Below are positions 17,206 to 22,254 of a stretch of DNA of 47,603 bases, piece by piece (within the stretch, counting starts at the first letter, position 1; each line of letters begins with the position of its first letter). Source of the stretch: Mesoaciditoga sp. Its GTDB lineage: Bacteria; Thermotogota; Thermotogae; Mesoaciditogales; Mesoaciditogaceae. Below the pieces are notes generated by a model, which was not told the DNA's origin, ran no database searches, and saw nothing but the letters and a program-made list of their open reading frames with translations. Both the position numbers and the translations under genes were made by a program. The stretch is from the NCBI GenBank assembly GCA_002878315.1, contig PNIW01000008.1, positions 1 through 47,603 of the forward strand, read 5' to 3'.

Positions 17206-18657
17206 TCAGGAAAGTTTTTTCGCTGGTTCTTTATCTTCCTTCCATTCTGGCTTTTTTCCGCGCATGTACGAAAGAATCGCGGCTGCAATGCTTATAAATA
17301 AAGATATGTAAAAGGCAACGCTTAAGTCGTGAATGAATTTGTCAACGAATATGCCCCTGGAACCAACCTGAATTCCCGCAAATAGAGCCTGCATTGCCTG
17401 CGGAGTCATTCCGGAAGATGTTACGGCAAAGGCTATGGCTATGCTGACAACGGACCCGGCGTTATTCATCATGACACGAGTGCCCGAGGCTGTTCCCCTT
17501 TTATTGGAAGGGACAGAACTCATTATGGCGTTGTTGTTGGGAGAGTTGAACATTCCAGATCCGAATCCCATTATCATCTGCCAGAATATTATCTCAAATA
17601 AAGACGTGTTTGCATTTATAAATGTAAAACCAAAAAGTCCGGCTGCCATGACAAGCAGGCCAATCGAACTCAATTCACGCGATCCGTATTTATCAGAAAG
17701 AGCTCCGCTTATCGGCGCCGCTACCATCATCGCGATGGCAAACGGAGTTAGCATCAACCCTGCCTCAAACGGGCTCATTGACTTTATACCCTGAAGGTAG
17801 AATATGAGAAGAAATGTAAGAGATCCATTCGCTATGCCATTGAAAAGCGTTGATGTGTAGGCAAAGCCCATAAGTCTGTTTTTGAAAAAGGTCAGATCCA
17901 AAAGCGGATCCCTTGTCCTCGATTCGAGATAGACAAAGACCAACATTAAAATCGCGCCGACCACAAATCCAATGACAGTTGTAAGAGATCCCCAGCCGTA
18001 AAGGCCTCCCAAACTCATGGCCATGAGTATTCCGAAGAGTCCTCCCGTCAGAGTGATCGCTCCAAACCAGTCGAATTTTTGATCTGAAGGCATTTTTTCA
18101 ACTTCTTTTATTTGAAGCCACGCCCATATCGTTCCTATTATTCCGAGAGGCACGTTGAAGAAGAAGACCCATCTCCATCCGAGCGCGACAGTCAAAAGGC
18201 CGCCTATAATAGGCCCGAGAGTGAATCCAACGGCAACAACCATAGCATTTATCCCGAGAGCCCTTCCGAGTTCTTTCCTCGGGAAAGCGTCTGTAACTAT
18301 AGCCGCGCTATTTGCGATCATGAGGGCTCCTCCTACGGACTGAACTATCCTTAATATGAGAAGTTCCGGCCCGTTTTGTGAAAGGCCTGCAAAAAAGGAT
18401 GTTACCGTAAAAAGCGCGAAACCGTCGACGTAAAGATTTTTTCTTCCAAAGATATCTGCCACCCTTCCTATCGCGGGCACGAGAATTGTCACTGACAGCA
18501 TGTAACTCATTATTACCCATATAACGAGTATCATGGAGGTGTTCAATTCTTTCGCTATATCGGGAAGCGCTATAAGCAAAGCGCTGCTATTCATGACCGA
18601 AACAAATGCTCCAAGACTTGTCGCTGACAAAGCCTTCCATTTATATTGAACTGCCAT
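17206..18657 (-). CDS. MFS exporter, DHA2 (14-helix) drug:proton antiporter family
   Basis: The 483-residue protein has about fourteen hydrophobic segments. It carries the major facilitator motif A (GRVADIFGRKN, about residues 64-74) and the antiporter motif C (GFTLGPIIGG, about 145-154), which together indicate proton-driven export of the DHA2/EmrB type. The N-terminus has the typical D/N-x-x-x-x-x-ALP segment (NSSALLIALPDI). The substrate cannot be predicted. It is transcribed toward secG but appears to be its own unit: 73 bases separate it from the purH-like gene, and secG has its own promoter. AAGGAA precedes the ATG. Confidence 0.88.
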   Translation of the reverse strand: MAVQYKWKALSATSLGAFVSVMNSSALLIALPDIAKELNTSMILVIWVIMSYMLSVTILVPAIGRVADIFGRKNLYVDGFALFTVTSFFAGLSQNGPELLILRIVQSVGGALMIANSAAIVTDAFPRKELGRALGINAMVVAVGFTLGPIIGGLLTVALGWRWVFFFNVPLGIIGTIWAWLQIKEVEKMPSDQKFDWFGAITLTGGLFGILMAMSLGGLYGWGSLTTVIGFVVGAILMLVFVYLESRTRDPLLDLTFFKNRLMGFAYTSTLFNGIANGSLTFLLIFYLQGIKSMSPFEAGLMLTPFAIAMMVAAPISGALSDKYGSRELSSIGLLVMAAGLFGFTFINANTSLFEIIFWQMIMGFGSGMFNSPNNNAIMSSVPSNKRGTASGTRVMMNNAGSVVSIAIAFAVTSSGMTPQAMQALFAGIQVGSRGIFVDKFIHDLSVAFYISLFISIAAAILSYMRGKKPEWKEDKEPAKKLS

Positions 18658-18730: not shown

Positions 18731-20053
18731 TCAAATTTTGTATCTTCTTCTGCCAGAAAAGACGAGTTCTATTCCGTTTTCTTCGAGTTTTTTCCTTATG
18801 TTTTTGTCCTCTTTGACTCCGCCGGGCTCTATGACGGTCTTTATTCCGCTTCCTATTATAAGATCTGGAATTTTTAAATCTCTTATCGGGCCGTCAAAGG
18901 CACAGATCGCGCCATCTAAACTTGAAGGATATTTTTTGGCCTTCATCAGTGCAACTTCTAAAGCCTCTATCTGTTCGGCCTGGCCGGATCCTAAAGAGAT
19001 CATTTCGTAATCCTTGAATATGCAGCATGCCATGCTTTTGGAAAGGGCAACTATGAGGTTGACGAATTTGTACTGTACGTCAAATTCATCAGATAAAAAT
19101 CTCATATTCAAAAGATCATCTGGCGTCTGAACGAGAAAATTTCCTTCGAGAAACCTGTATTCTTTTTCTATTTCTAAATTCGGTATCTCTTTTATCTTTA
19201 TGAATTTCTTTATTTTAAGGTCAGGGTAATCGGGAAAATCGGGCAGGATGACTATATCAAGATCATTTCCATCAAGCCCTTTTAAGAGTTCCTTGCTTAA
19301 GAAATTGGCGGCAAGGACTCCTCTTGAATCTTTGAAATTGAAATTGCTTCTTTTTACCTCAGCGATCACGCCGTGATGAACCCTTACGGCGAATCTGTAA
19401 TCTAAGTATCTCAGAAGCGAAAGGGCCGTGTAGATGTCTATTATGTTGTTGTAACTGAGAGTAAAGAGAGTATCCTCATCGAGAATGTCAAAAAAAGCCT
19501 TTGTTTTTGCTATTTTTGAAAGGTAGGCGAGTTGCTGCGGATTTTCTCCGTATCTTAAGGGTGTCTTTTCTTCCAAAATAAGGGTTTCAAATTTTTCGGA
19601 GGCAAAGAGTTCGCTCATTTCTTTGTGGATCAAAGACGTGTATCTTAAGACCCTGTAGAGCGCTTTGAGAGAAAGCATCCTTCTGTCCTGAAGTGTTATG
19701 TCTCCGCATTCTTCGAGTGATTCTATTATTTTATCGAAATCATCGGGATCGAGCACTATCACTGAATTTCTGTAATTTTTTACGCATGAATAGATCGCGG
19801 AAATCTTCCACTCCTCTATCGAATTGAGAATGTAATTCTCTTCCAGTCTTTGATTTGCAGTGTTAAGTTCAAGCACAACGAGATCTATACCCTGAAAATC
19901 CGAACCCCCGGATTTTTTGATCTCGATGTTAAGATCGAATATGTTTTTGAAATCGTCGATTGTATAGATCTTTACTCCAAACTGAATCAGTTTGTCCTTA
20001 AAAGCGCTGTAGGGGCCGTCGATCCTTTCGAAAAAAGCGTAATTTACGTTCAA
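18731..20053 (-). CDS. Divergent PurH-like protein, probably not an active AICAR transformylase
   Basis: The 440-residue length matches the short Thermotoga-type PurH. Family landmarks in order are LRYGENPQQ (166-174), LSYNNI (199-204), a GSGQ segment and IEPGG near the C-terminus, so the AICAR formyltransferase fold is present. Catalytic motifs are degraded: KHxNPCG reads HHGVIAE (about 226-232), SNA after the conserved Lys reads SMA, GQMSRVDS reads GQAEQIEA, FFPF reads DGPI, and the terminal RHFRH reads RRRYKI. The N-terminal half shows neither the IMP cyclohydrolase SSGT nor the KTLHP motif. It starts at TTG 20053, four bases after the cheW stop, inside a signalling operon rather than a purine operon. 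I infer a repurposed ligand-binding paralogue. Confidence 0.72.
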   Translation of the reverse strand: MNVNYAFFERIDGPYSAFKDKLIQFGVKIYTIDDFKNIFDLNIEIKKSGGSDFQGIDLVVLELNTANQRLEENYILNSIEEWKISAIYSCVKNYRNSVIVLDPDDFDKIIESLEECGDITLQDRRMLSLKALYRVLRYTSLIHKEMSELFASEKFETLILEEKTPLRYGENPQQLAYLSKIAKTKAFFDILDEDTLFTLSYNNIIDIYTALSLLRYLDYRFAVRVHHGVIAEVKRSNFNFKDSRGVLAANFLSKELLKGLDGNDLDIVILPDFPDYPDLKIKKFIKIKEIPNLEIEKEYRFLEGNFLVQTPDDLLNMRFLSDEFDVQYKFVNLIVALSKSMACCIFKDYEMISLGSGQAEQIEALEVALMKAKKYPSSLDGAICAFDGPIRDLKIPDLIIGSGIKTVIEPGGVKEDKNIRKKLEENGIELVFSGRRRYKI

Positions 20054-20057
20054 TCCA

Positions 20058-20513
20058 TCACCTCATTGCATTTGCAAGTTGAACTGACTCTTTGTCCGTT
20101 AAAATTTTGTCTATATCTAATATGATTATCATTCTACCATTCATATTCGAGATGGCGCCTATGTATTTGTTAGAATTATTCGATATCTCCTCTGGAGGTT
20201 CTTCGAGTTGATTTTGGGAGAGAGTTATGACCTCTTTGACCTCGTCTACTATTATCGCGACTTTTTTGTTTCCGACGTTGACAACAATCGCCTTTTGGTT
20301 CTCCTTTTTTGATTCATCGCTGACTAAAAATTTCTTCCTTCCATTTATTACCGGAATCGCTAATCCCCTGAAATCCATAAGTCCTTCTACAAAATTGGGA
20401 GCATTCGGGATCCTGACGATCTTCCCGACGGGCACTATGCTGTCTATCTTCATAATGTCTATCGCGTATTCTTCTTCTCCTATCATGAAATTAACTACCT
20501 TCATCTCGCTCAT
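20058..20513 (-). CDS. cheW: CheW-like scaffold protein
   Basis: The 151-residue single-domain protein has the two-lobed beta-barrel CheW pattern: VVNFMIGEEEYAIDIMKIDSIV, then IVRIPNAPNFVEGLMDFRGLAIPVINGRK, and a C-terminal strand IIILDIDKIL. CheW couples chemoreceptors to the kinase CheA. No CheA or receptor gene is present here, so it may serve chemotaxis genes elsewhere or a different complex. Its ATG lies 23 bases inside the lexA-like gene, preceded by AGGAGGG, and its TGA is followed almost at once by the purH-like gene, so all three are translationally coupled. Confidence 0.9.
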   Translation of the reverse strand: MSEMKVVNFMIGEEEYAIDIMKIDSIVPVGKIVRIPNAPNFVEGLMDFRGLAIPVINGRKKFLVSDESKKENQKAIVVNVGNKKVAIIVDEVKEVITLSQNQLEEPPEEISNNSNKYIGAISNMNGRMIIILDIDKILTDKESVQLANAMR

Positions 20514-21069
20514 TGAAATCCCTCCTTTCCGGAATTCTTAATATACCGTAGAAACTTCCCTTTATTTCTCCATCGATTTTGTTCCCATTCAGATCTTTTA
20601 ACTCACCGGAATTGTAAATGCCAATGAAGTAATCATCGCCTTTTTTTAAAAGCACAAGTCCATCCTGAATTTCGTCGTTAAAAATTATGTAATCGCCACT
20701 TATAACTTTATATTGAACAATCTCTATCGCTGATTTAACCGCGATAAGAGATTTTTCATTTGACGGGATTGGCAGGTGAACTTTTTTGTTGCTTTTAATG
20801 ATTTTACCACTTTTTCCGGCCCATCCTATTAATTCGGCGAAGGTAATGTCAAAAGGGCTTTGAGAAAGTACCTTTATTCCGCGCGATGCTTTATCTCTTT
20901 TTATGTATCCCTTTTTTTCTATCGCTTCAACATGAGCGAGCGCCCCGCTCGGGGAAGAAAATCCAAAATGATCAGATATCTCCCTTATAGTTGGGGGATA
21001 ACCATTTCTGTTCAAAAATTCTTTTATAAAGTCGTAAATTTCGCGTTGCCGCTGTGTTAATTCTTTTAT
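20491..21069 (-). CDS. LexA-like repressor with degenerate peptidase domain and non-standard start
   Basis: The N-terminal winged helix-turn-helix is clearly LexA: KELTQRQREIYDFI, NGYPPTIREIS and GYIKRDKASRGI (residues 2-68). The C-terminal domain keeps the LexA layout, including a possible AG cleavage pair (84-85) and GDYIIF (125-130). However, the catalytic Ser of the GxSM motif reads as KSAI (112-115), and the Lys-containing TLKK strand reads YFIGIY, so self-cleavage should be impossible. The full domain is open only back to ATA at 21069, preceded by a stop and by AAGGGGTG at six bases. A GTG at 21073 is out of frame by one base in an A4 run. TTG at 21015 would delete the first helix. Confidence 0.75.
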   Translation of the reverse strand: MKELTQRQREIYDFIKEFLNRNGYPPTIREISDHFGFSSPSGALAHVEAIEKKGYIKRDKASRGIKVLSQSPFDITFAELIGWAGKSGKIIKSNKKVHLPIPSNEKSLIAVKSAIEIVQYKVISGDYIIFNDEIQDGLVLLKKGDDYFIGIYNSGELKDLNGNKIDGEIKGSFYGILRIPERRDFNERDEGS

Positions 21070-21075
21070 TCACAA

Positions 21076-21083
21076 CACCCCTT
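21076..21083 (-). promoter_or_regulatory. Ribosome binding site that points to the lexA-like ATA start
   Basis: AAGGGGTG overlaps the DUF1015 stop codon and lies six bases before ATA (21069-21067) and about four before the out-of-frame GTG (21073-21071). No comparable site precedes the in-frame TTG at 21015. It therefore supports initiation at the family-typical N-terminus. Confidence 0.6.
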
Positions 21084-22254
21084 AGAATGTGTGAACGACA
21101 AGGCCACTTCTTAATTTTGGCTCAAACCATGTCGATTTCGGAGGCATTATCATGCCGCTGTCCGCAACGTTAATGACGCTTTCAACGCTTGTCGGGTACA
21201 TGTAAAAGGCTATTTTACCCCTTTCATCGTCGACGATCTTTTGAAGTTCTTTCGGTCCCGCCATTCCTACGAACTCTATGTCAGGATCTGTTCTTGGGTC
21301 TTTTATCCCGAACAATGGATCGAGCACCCTTTCCTGAAGAATAGAAACATCAAGGGATCTGACTGGATCCTCATCAACCACTTTTGCTTTTAACTCGTAC
21401 CATTCTCCGTTGTACATGCCTATAACGTGCGGGGCGACAGACGGAATTGTGCTTCTTTTTGTTACTTCAAAATTTGCTTCCTTTAAGGACTTTATTAATT
21501 TTGAAGTGTCAATGCTTTTTTTTATTATTCTGTGGTATCCGAGTATTTCGAGTTCGTCGTGCGGAAAGATCGTAGCCATGAAATAATTCCATTCCCCAGA
21601 TCCGCCTATTTCAGATGCCGCTCTAACGGAGGCCGCGGCTCTGTGATGACCGTCCGCTATGTAAAAGGCCTCGACGGATTTGAACGCTTCGATTATGTCG
21701 TCGACAAGAACGCTATCCTCTATCCTGTAAAGATCGTGAATGGTTGCGGGATTTTCCGTCGTGAATTTGTAAAGATGGGTGGCGAGATCTGATCTCATCA
21801 ATTTTTTTATCTCTTTTTTCGATCTGTACATCAAAAAGACCTGTTCTGTGTGCGCACGGGTTGTGAGGATGTGTTTCATTCTCTCCTCTTCTTTTTCTTT
21901 TCTCGTAAGTTCATGCCTTTTTATCTTTTCGGGATAGTCAGATGCTTGAACGCACGCCATAACGCCAGTCTGGGTATGCGAGGCCGTTTTTTGAACGTAA
22001 ATGTAGAGTGAAGGCCTTTCATTTCTTATAAGAAGCCCTTCATCTACGAATCTTTTCAATTCTTTTGCGGCGAGATCGTAGATATTCTCTCCCTCTTTGG
22101 CGATCGCGTCAGGTCTTACGATGCGCATGAAGGAGTGCGGATCCTTTGCGAAATCTTTTGCCTCTTTAAAATCCACAACATCGTACGGAGGACAGTTTAT
22201 TCTATTTATCTCGGTACTTTTTGCTTCCAGCCCACCAAAAGGTCTTACGATCAT
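21082..22254 (-). CDS. DUF1015 family protein
   Basis: This 390-residue protein matches DUF1015. It begins IVRPFGGLEA, contains the early NCPPYDVV segment, a long middle with EQVFLMY, and the family hallmark ADGHHRAAAS (about 201-210), then a C-terminal part with VGMAGP. The family's biochemical role is not settled to my knowledge; members in Thermotoga lie near serine biosynthesis genes, but no such genes occur here. The ADGHHR box resembles a nucleotide- or phosphate-handling site. It lies between mrp (15-base gap) and the lexA-like gene (12 bases to its ATA). Confidence 0.85.
   Translation of the reverse strand: MIVRPFGGLEAKSTEINRINCPPYDVVDFKEAKDFAKDPHSFMRIVRPDAIAKEGENIYDLAAKELKRFVDEGLLIRNERPSLYIYVQKTASHTQTGVMACVQASDYPEKIKRHELTRKEKEEERMKHILTTRAHTEQVFLMYRSKKEIKKLMRSDLATHLYKFTTENPATIHDLYRIEDSVLVDDIIEAFKSVEAFYIADGHHRAAASVRAASEIGGSGEWNYFMATIFPHDELEILGYHRIIKKSIDTSKLIKSLKEANFEVTKRSTIPSVAPHVIGMYNGEWYELKAKVVDEDPVRSLDVSILQERVLDPLFGIKDPRTDPDIEFVGMAGPKELQKIVDDERGKIAFYMYPTSVESVINVADSGMIMPPKSTWFEPKLRSGLVVHTF

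Follow-up and report, generated by a model that had tools for sequence, protein, structure and literature searches.

The closest described relative of the protein studied here is PurH/ATIC (PF01808 plus PF02142), with which it has common ancestry over approximately residues 45-440. PurH structures, including 4ehi, the Mtb structures 3zzm and 4a1o, and T. maritima 1zcz, have the same fold. The cyclohydrolase residues of the enzyme (K66, Y104, D125 and K137) and its AICAR contacts have been listed, with transformylase numbers one higher than those used here (PMC3261824). PurH from Methanosarcina acetivorans, together with aEF2, is a 50S dimerization factor, and its active sites are empty in that structure (9ou7; PMC12605026). 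This is a PurH fold in a non-enzymatic role, as we propose for the protein described here; however, in the archaeon the enzyme of purine synthesis itself has taken on the second role, whereas ours is a separate, catalytically impaired copy. The single-domain AICAR formyltransferase (NCBIfam PRK07106) is a weak match to the transformylase part of our protein (15.5 bits; cut-off 415), and its catalytic residues are absent there. A further precedent is PDB 6nko, which we take to be ForH, a PurH-like protein of the formycin pathway. ForH is likewise reused outside normal purine synthesis and matches our protein by fold (E 1.3e-5). It is short (about 190-196 residues resolved), whereas our protein keeps mainly the transformylase part, and there were no C-nucleoside biosynthetic genes, the ForH-type context, among the neighbours of our gene.

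The window, the whole stretch of DNA that was analyzed, is 47,603 nucleotides of Mesoaciditoga sp. contig PNIW01000008.1. The PurH-like protein that it encodes differs from PurH/ATIC in having lost K266, N431, F541, K66, Y104 and D125, in having its constraint moved to a core, in scoring under curated cut-offs, and in being kept where purine synthesis is absent.

Fold and catalytic residues of the PurH-like protein

The coordinates given in the initial annotation were right, and the gene is on the minus strand. It starts with a TTG codon, and GAGGTGAT lies directly upstream of it. LN(V/I)N is the common start of all ten Mesoaciditogales proteins (the window protein and nine orthologues), and the N-terminal LNVN of the window protein is similar to the MNIK of the other second paralogues described below. 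Its features are as follows; H226-H227-G228 and M341 are numbered in the window protein, and single catalytic residues as in human ATIC.

18731..20053, minus strand: putative PurH-like pseudoenzyme, 440 aa, TTG start (open reading frame, Pfam and PDB homology, residue alignment, dN/dS)
19850..20053, minus strand: shortened remnant of the MGS-like cyclohydrolase domain, residues 1-68 (K66 and Y104 motifs gone)
19565..19849, minus strand: clade-defining core, residues 69-163 (KNYRNS..DPDDF..IIESLEECGDITLQDRRMLSLKA...SELFASEKFE)
18734..19564, minus strand: transformylase-like domain, residues 164-440, partial ligand site (23 of 45 canonical-invariant sites kept)
19532..19558, minus strand: LRYGENPQQ, equivalents of R207 and Y208 kept (sequence, residue alignment)
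19370..19378, minus strand: H226-H227-G228 replacing KHxNPCG (K266 to H, H267 kept), invariant in the order (alignment)
19022..19033, minus strand: M341-A-C-C beside the KSNA position (N431 to M; alignment)
18884..18898, minus strand: FDGPI replacing SDAFF (F541 to P; alignment)

Homology searches and structure prediction confirmed that the 440-aa protein is a PurH homologue, well beyond chance, with a predicted PurH fold. It matched Pfam PF01808 at 2.2e-27 and PDB 4ehi at 2.1e-23. With 61 relatives as input, AlphaFold gave a confident model with a pLDDT of 92.1 and a pTM of 0.88 (a model from ten sequences only, with a pLDDT of 62.8, was set aside), and the closest structures to it in a fold search were PurH crystal structures (5.7e-28). 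The protein fell far short of the curated PurH scores (NF002049, 135.5 bits with a cut-off of 402; TIGR00355, 110.1 with a cut-off of 528), cut-offs that some canonical Thermotogota PurH proteins narrowly miss as well.

We aligned 68 sequences, consisting of 27 canonical PurH proteins, among them that of E. coli, and 41 paralogues, and followed 12 catalytic and ligand sites. All 12 were retained in 27 of 27 canonical PurH proteins. The initial annotation had noted that the landmarks LRYGENPQQ, LSYNNI, GSGQ and PGG persist, and all were found. It had also held that the transformylase Lys, Asn and Phe are replaced and that the cyclohydrolase motifs are missing, and the alignment bore this out. 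In the transformylase site K266 is His, N431 is Met and F541 is Pro, the latter two being positions that we take to be catalytic or folate contacts, and R207, Y208, H267 (in VHHG) and R588 are retained; in the cyclohydrolase site K66, Y104 and D125 are lost and K137 alone is retained. The reported replacement of the terminal His was true of the window's genus but did not extend to six other members of the order, which end in RRYKH, RRFKH or RRYRH. By this residue comparison, the window protein is shown to have lost residues for both AICAR transformylase and IMP cyclohydrolase. K266, H267, N431 and F541 did not occur together in any of the 41 paralogues.

Selection and the purine pathway in the Mesoaciditogales

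Comparison with the Athalassotoga saccharophila orthologue gave a dN/dS of 0.026 (dN 0.022, dS 0.838) for the PurH-like gene, the same as for the nearby tyrosyl-tRNA synthetase gene (dN 0.021, dS 0.838); a decaying remnant or pseudogene was rejected on this ground. The PurH-like gene was present in all ten Mesoaciditogales genomes. It was the sole PurH-like gene in six; canonical purH was additionally present in four, the same four that have purD. At one locus (G004:C5:43544-44763) purD lies in two open reading frames behind canonical purH, reflecting a frameshift or an assembly error.

The window's genus is represented by four genomes, one of which, that of A. saccharophila, has a chromosome published as complete (PMC7163026). 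No canonical purH was detected in any of them; absences in the incomplete drafts carry less weight than in the complete genome. No PurD scored above the cut-off in these four genomes either, so the purine pathway was not found in the genus. HisF, the other source of AICAR, was absent from all ten genomes of the order. With no PurD, canonical PurH or HisF, there is no known ZMP-making route in the window's genus, and the ZMP sensor proposed initially is therefore unlikely there.

From dN/dS and gene content, the PurH-like gene is shown to be under strong purifying selection in cells without purine synthesis. This strongly supports the earlier proposal that a degenerate PurH has been repurposed outside purine synthesis. 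The search for a canonical purH, suggested along with that proposal, came up empty in the window's genus and succeeded elsewhere in the order, where the two genes coexist. Absence of another purH does not by itself refute repurposing, because the pathway is missing too.

Several roles tied to purine synthesis could be set aside. An active PurH was disfavored by the residues, the missing pathway and the coexistence with canonical PurH; a partner subunit of canonical PurH, by the retention of the gene where canonical PurH is absent; and recycling of AICAR from histidine synthesis, for the order, by the lack of HisF. That six of the ten genomes have no other PurH-like gene would fit a strongly diverged but active PurH of the cell. 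We consider that reading, and equally that of a decaying remnant, highly improbable given the loss of both catalytic sets, the lack of PurD in those genomes, the canonical PurH of four relatives and the low dN/dS.

A paralogue family across the Thermotogota and its core

By a profile search with the ten Mesoaciditogales proteins, most Thermotogota were seen to have a second PurH-like gene. In a tree of the 68 sequences, all second paralogues formed one clade apart from canonical PurH (support 99/97). With the tree rooted on E. coli, this clade branches from within Thermotogota canonical PurH; its internal branching order is unsure because several rows have very long branches. A profile of the 91-residue core only, which separates the clade from canonical PurH, found clade members in 88 of 103 Thermotogota genomes and in 10 of 11 families (designated f1, f2 and so on; f1 is the Mesoaciditogales), with three f10 genomes, whose scores of 73-75 bits overlap the outside scores, counted by the length of the open reading frame (371-382 aa) and by kinship. 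Outside the phylum, no clade members were recognized in 287 genomes, where the best core-profile scores were ≤84 bits. The outside matches that we inspected were canonical PurH or stand-alone cyclohydrolase domains, and the nine strongest or oddest had all or nearly all of the catalytic motifs of their domains intact. At four outside loci (L114, L115, L116 and L117) there are stand-alone cyclohydrolase-type open reading frames of 199-293 aa that retain the IMP cyclohydrolase motifs wholly or for the most part.

Retention of the paralogue did not differ between genomes without PurD (28 of 33) and genomes with it (60 of 70; Fisher p = 1), and HisF was also missing from 25 of the 28 paralogue-bearing genomes without PurD. 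Since the gene is kept almost throughout the Thermotogota, even without purine synthesis, it must do another job. The best explanation for the tree and the distribution is that a PurH duplication early in the phylum gave rise to a Thermotogota-specific family of predicted pseudoenzymes. We found no relevant literature on a PurH paralogue in Thermotogae, in a search that covered few subscription journals, no Pfam or NCBIfam model for the family beyond PF01808, MGS (Pfam) and the sub-threshold PurH models, and no solved structure matching the Thermotoga-type (f10) paralogue by sequence. There seems to be no earlier description of this family, whose members would be pseudoenzymes that descend from a known enzyme.

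To judge from the residues that remain, decay took opposite courses, striking one catalytic half in some families and the other half in others. In f7 and f9 the cyclohydrolase site is mostly whole, with as many as 16 of the 16 N-terminal positions that are invariant in canonical PurH, and the transformylase site is lost. All four cyclohydrolase residues are present in 10 of 12 sampled members of these two families, so some may still be enzymes. The whole transformylase domain is gone in f8, f11 and part of f9, leaving proteins of 199-223 aa, and Y104 is Arg in f8 and f11. The Mesoaciditogales proteins show the reverse: in the two members counted, 23-25 of the 45 transformylase positions remain, against 1-3 of the 16 N-terminal ones. 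Two f5 paralogues of 504-507 aa (L102 1189-2703 and L105 1999-3522) have followed a separate course of decay, with RHGNPLW and GAGQ kept and K266 and N431 gone.

Common to all paralogues is a core of approximately 95 residues, CGDVPLQxRRxLALKA...LSELFASEKFE, corresponding to residues 69-163 of the window protein. Mean identity between families was 25.8% in the N-terminal part, 41.5% in the core and 16.8% in the C-terminal part of the paralogues, compared to 47.6%, 38.5% and 44.7%, respectively, in canonical PurH. The core is therefore the least conserved part of canonical PurH and the most conserved part of the paralogues. CGD was found in 36 of 41 paralogues and in none of 27 canonical PurH proteins, and RR..K in 40 of 41 and 2 of 27, respectively; the window protein has the clade signature (C)GD..L..RR..(A/S)LKA plus SE.FA.EKFE. 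In these comparisons, the two active sites are shown to have lost constraint family-wide, and the core, where the former cyclohydrolase domain ends, to have gained it. Dimer contacts could account for part of the core conservation.

The ten f1 proteins have a feature of their own. H226, H227, C343 and C344 are invariant among them, with the histidines at the K266/H267 positions and the cysteines beside the N431 position. H226 is absent or nearly so from canonical PurH, and C343 and C344 each occur in at most one canonical protein. Such a set could make a new enzyme, in which the Mesoaciditogales pocket would carry out a different nucleotide reaction or bind a metal through His226/His227 and Cys343/Cys344. 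The set is found in f1 only and the other clade members do not have it, and we regard this reading as decidedly unlikely.

Gene neighborhood and possible functions

The genes upstream of the PurH-like gene are on the same strand.

20058..20513, minus strand: CheW, directly upstream with a 4-nt gap (PF01584, 1.6e-37)
20491..21015, minus strand: LexA-like DNA-binding protein, overlapping the cheW start (PF01726, 6e-14)
21082..22254, minus strand: DUF1015 protein, conserved neighbor (neighborhood comparison, Pfam)

The PurH-like gene is probably co-expressed with those for CheW and the LexA-like protein. There was no Peptidase_S24 match in the tail of the latter, which is apparently a repressor without a self-cleavage domain; its true start may be further upstream because the listed start truncates the DNA-binding domain. 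CheW adjoins the PurH-like gene in eight of the ten Mesoaciditogales genomes, and is missing from the clusters of G002 and G003, which weakens the case for CheW as an obligate partner. A further CheW, encoded next to a longer CheA-like open reading frame, occurs in nine of the ten genomes, indicating that a chemotaxis-type system exists in them. The conserved cluster also holds an Mrp-type ATPase, a HEAT-repeat protein and a TsaB-like protein, and in those members of the order that do not belong to the window's genus the PurH-like gene is overlapped at its 3' end by one for homoserine dehydrogenase. In the window and in A. saccharophila, tyrS is separated from the PurH-like gene by a gene for a 483-aa transporter-like protein (17206-18657, minus strand), which is absent from that place in the other two genomes of the genus (L022 and L023).

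This arrangement bears on the proposal of a ZMP, IMP or folate sensor, in which the residual transformylase pocket would bind its ligand and signal through CheW or the LexA-like protein. The operon-like spacing fits such a sensor, as do the R207, Y208, H267 and R588 kept in f1 together with 23 of 45 canonical-invariant transformylase sites, and a nucleotide-sensing role has been suggested for PurH in the 50S dimers of M. acetivorans by the authors of that work (PMC12605026). The window's genus has no AICAR source, however, and the clusters without CheW keep the PurH-like gene. A transformylase-pocket sensor cannot be the common function of the family, because the domain is missing from many members. 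Overall, we consider the sensor unlikely.

A gene neighborhood shared across the Thermotogota families was looked for and not found. Neighbors by family include CheW and LexA in f1, FliM/FliY in f2, glutamine synthetase in f6 and f7, and a ComF-like protein in f8 and f10. One f2 locus (G010, L068 3072-10498) is a flagellar run of a hook-type protein, MotA, MotB, FliL, FliM and FliY, followed by the paralogue. Glutamine synthetase is often beside the paralogue in f6 and f7 (L072, L073, L075 and L077). In f8 and f10 (L078, L079, L085 and L087) the paralogue is followed by the ComF-like protein, which has a zinc ribbon and a phosphoribosyltransferase domain, and in some f9 members (L071 and L083) by an approximately 200-aa protein that matches nothing in Pfam and by an FlhB C-terminal domain on its own (approximately 90 aa). 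Because the neighbors vary between families, gene context does not name a partner.

A role on the ribosome or in translation, by analogy with the bridging of two 50S subunits by M. acetivorans PurH and aEF2, has this published precedent (PMC12605026), and the highest query TM-score among the fold matches (0.81) was to the PurH chain of the 50S dimer (9ou7_DA). That match reflects the common PurH fold, though, and the f1 context has no ribosomal genes. Of the 103 Thermotogota genomes, 98 already encode an S30AE-domain hibernation factor, mostly in open reading frames of approximately 180-210 aa, which leaves no evident gap for the PurH-like protein to fill, and replacement of a missing hibernation factor is unsupported. 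We consider a ribosome or translation factor very unlikely.

Our preferred reading, held tentatively, places the gene in a Thermotogota family of PurH-derived pseudoenzymes, as its Mesoaciditogales representative, and has it encode a non-catalytic scaffold or regulator that acts through the core. Its chief competitors are a new enzyme with the HH/CC pocket and a role at the ribosome. For the family as a whole, there is a little less than an even chance that it is a phylum-wide, dedicated non-enzymatic regulator derived from PurH, with its function in the CGD...RR...LKA...LSELFASEKFE core and its catalytic domains decayed oppositely. The protein would be a scaffold or regulator that is probably homodimeric, as PurH is, and the surface of the core would bind a cellular partner. 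In the Mesoaciditogales, a phosphorylated purine or related ligand may still be accepted by the pocket, which has R207, Y208, H267 and R588 besides the new His226 and Cys343/344; such binding may tune the interaction between the core and its partner. IMP, AMP, GMP or another purine nucleotide might be bound there.

Similarity-based annotation would label these paralogues as a housekeeping purine enzyme or its fragments, and would credit some organisms with steps of purine synthesis that they do not have. Since some lineages dropped one half of the enzyme and others the other half, the family is an unusually clean record of where a new function is located. The nearest functional precedent, an archaeal PurH that dimerizes ribosomes, makes non-enzymatic roles of PurH a timely subject. 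If our preferred reading is true, a core metabolic enzyme would have become a phylum-wide regulator early in the Thermotogota.
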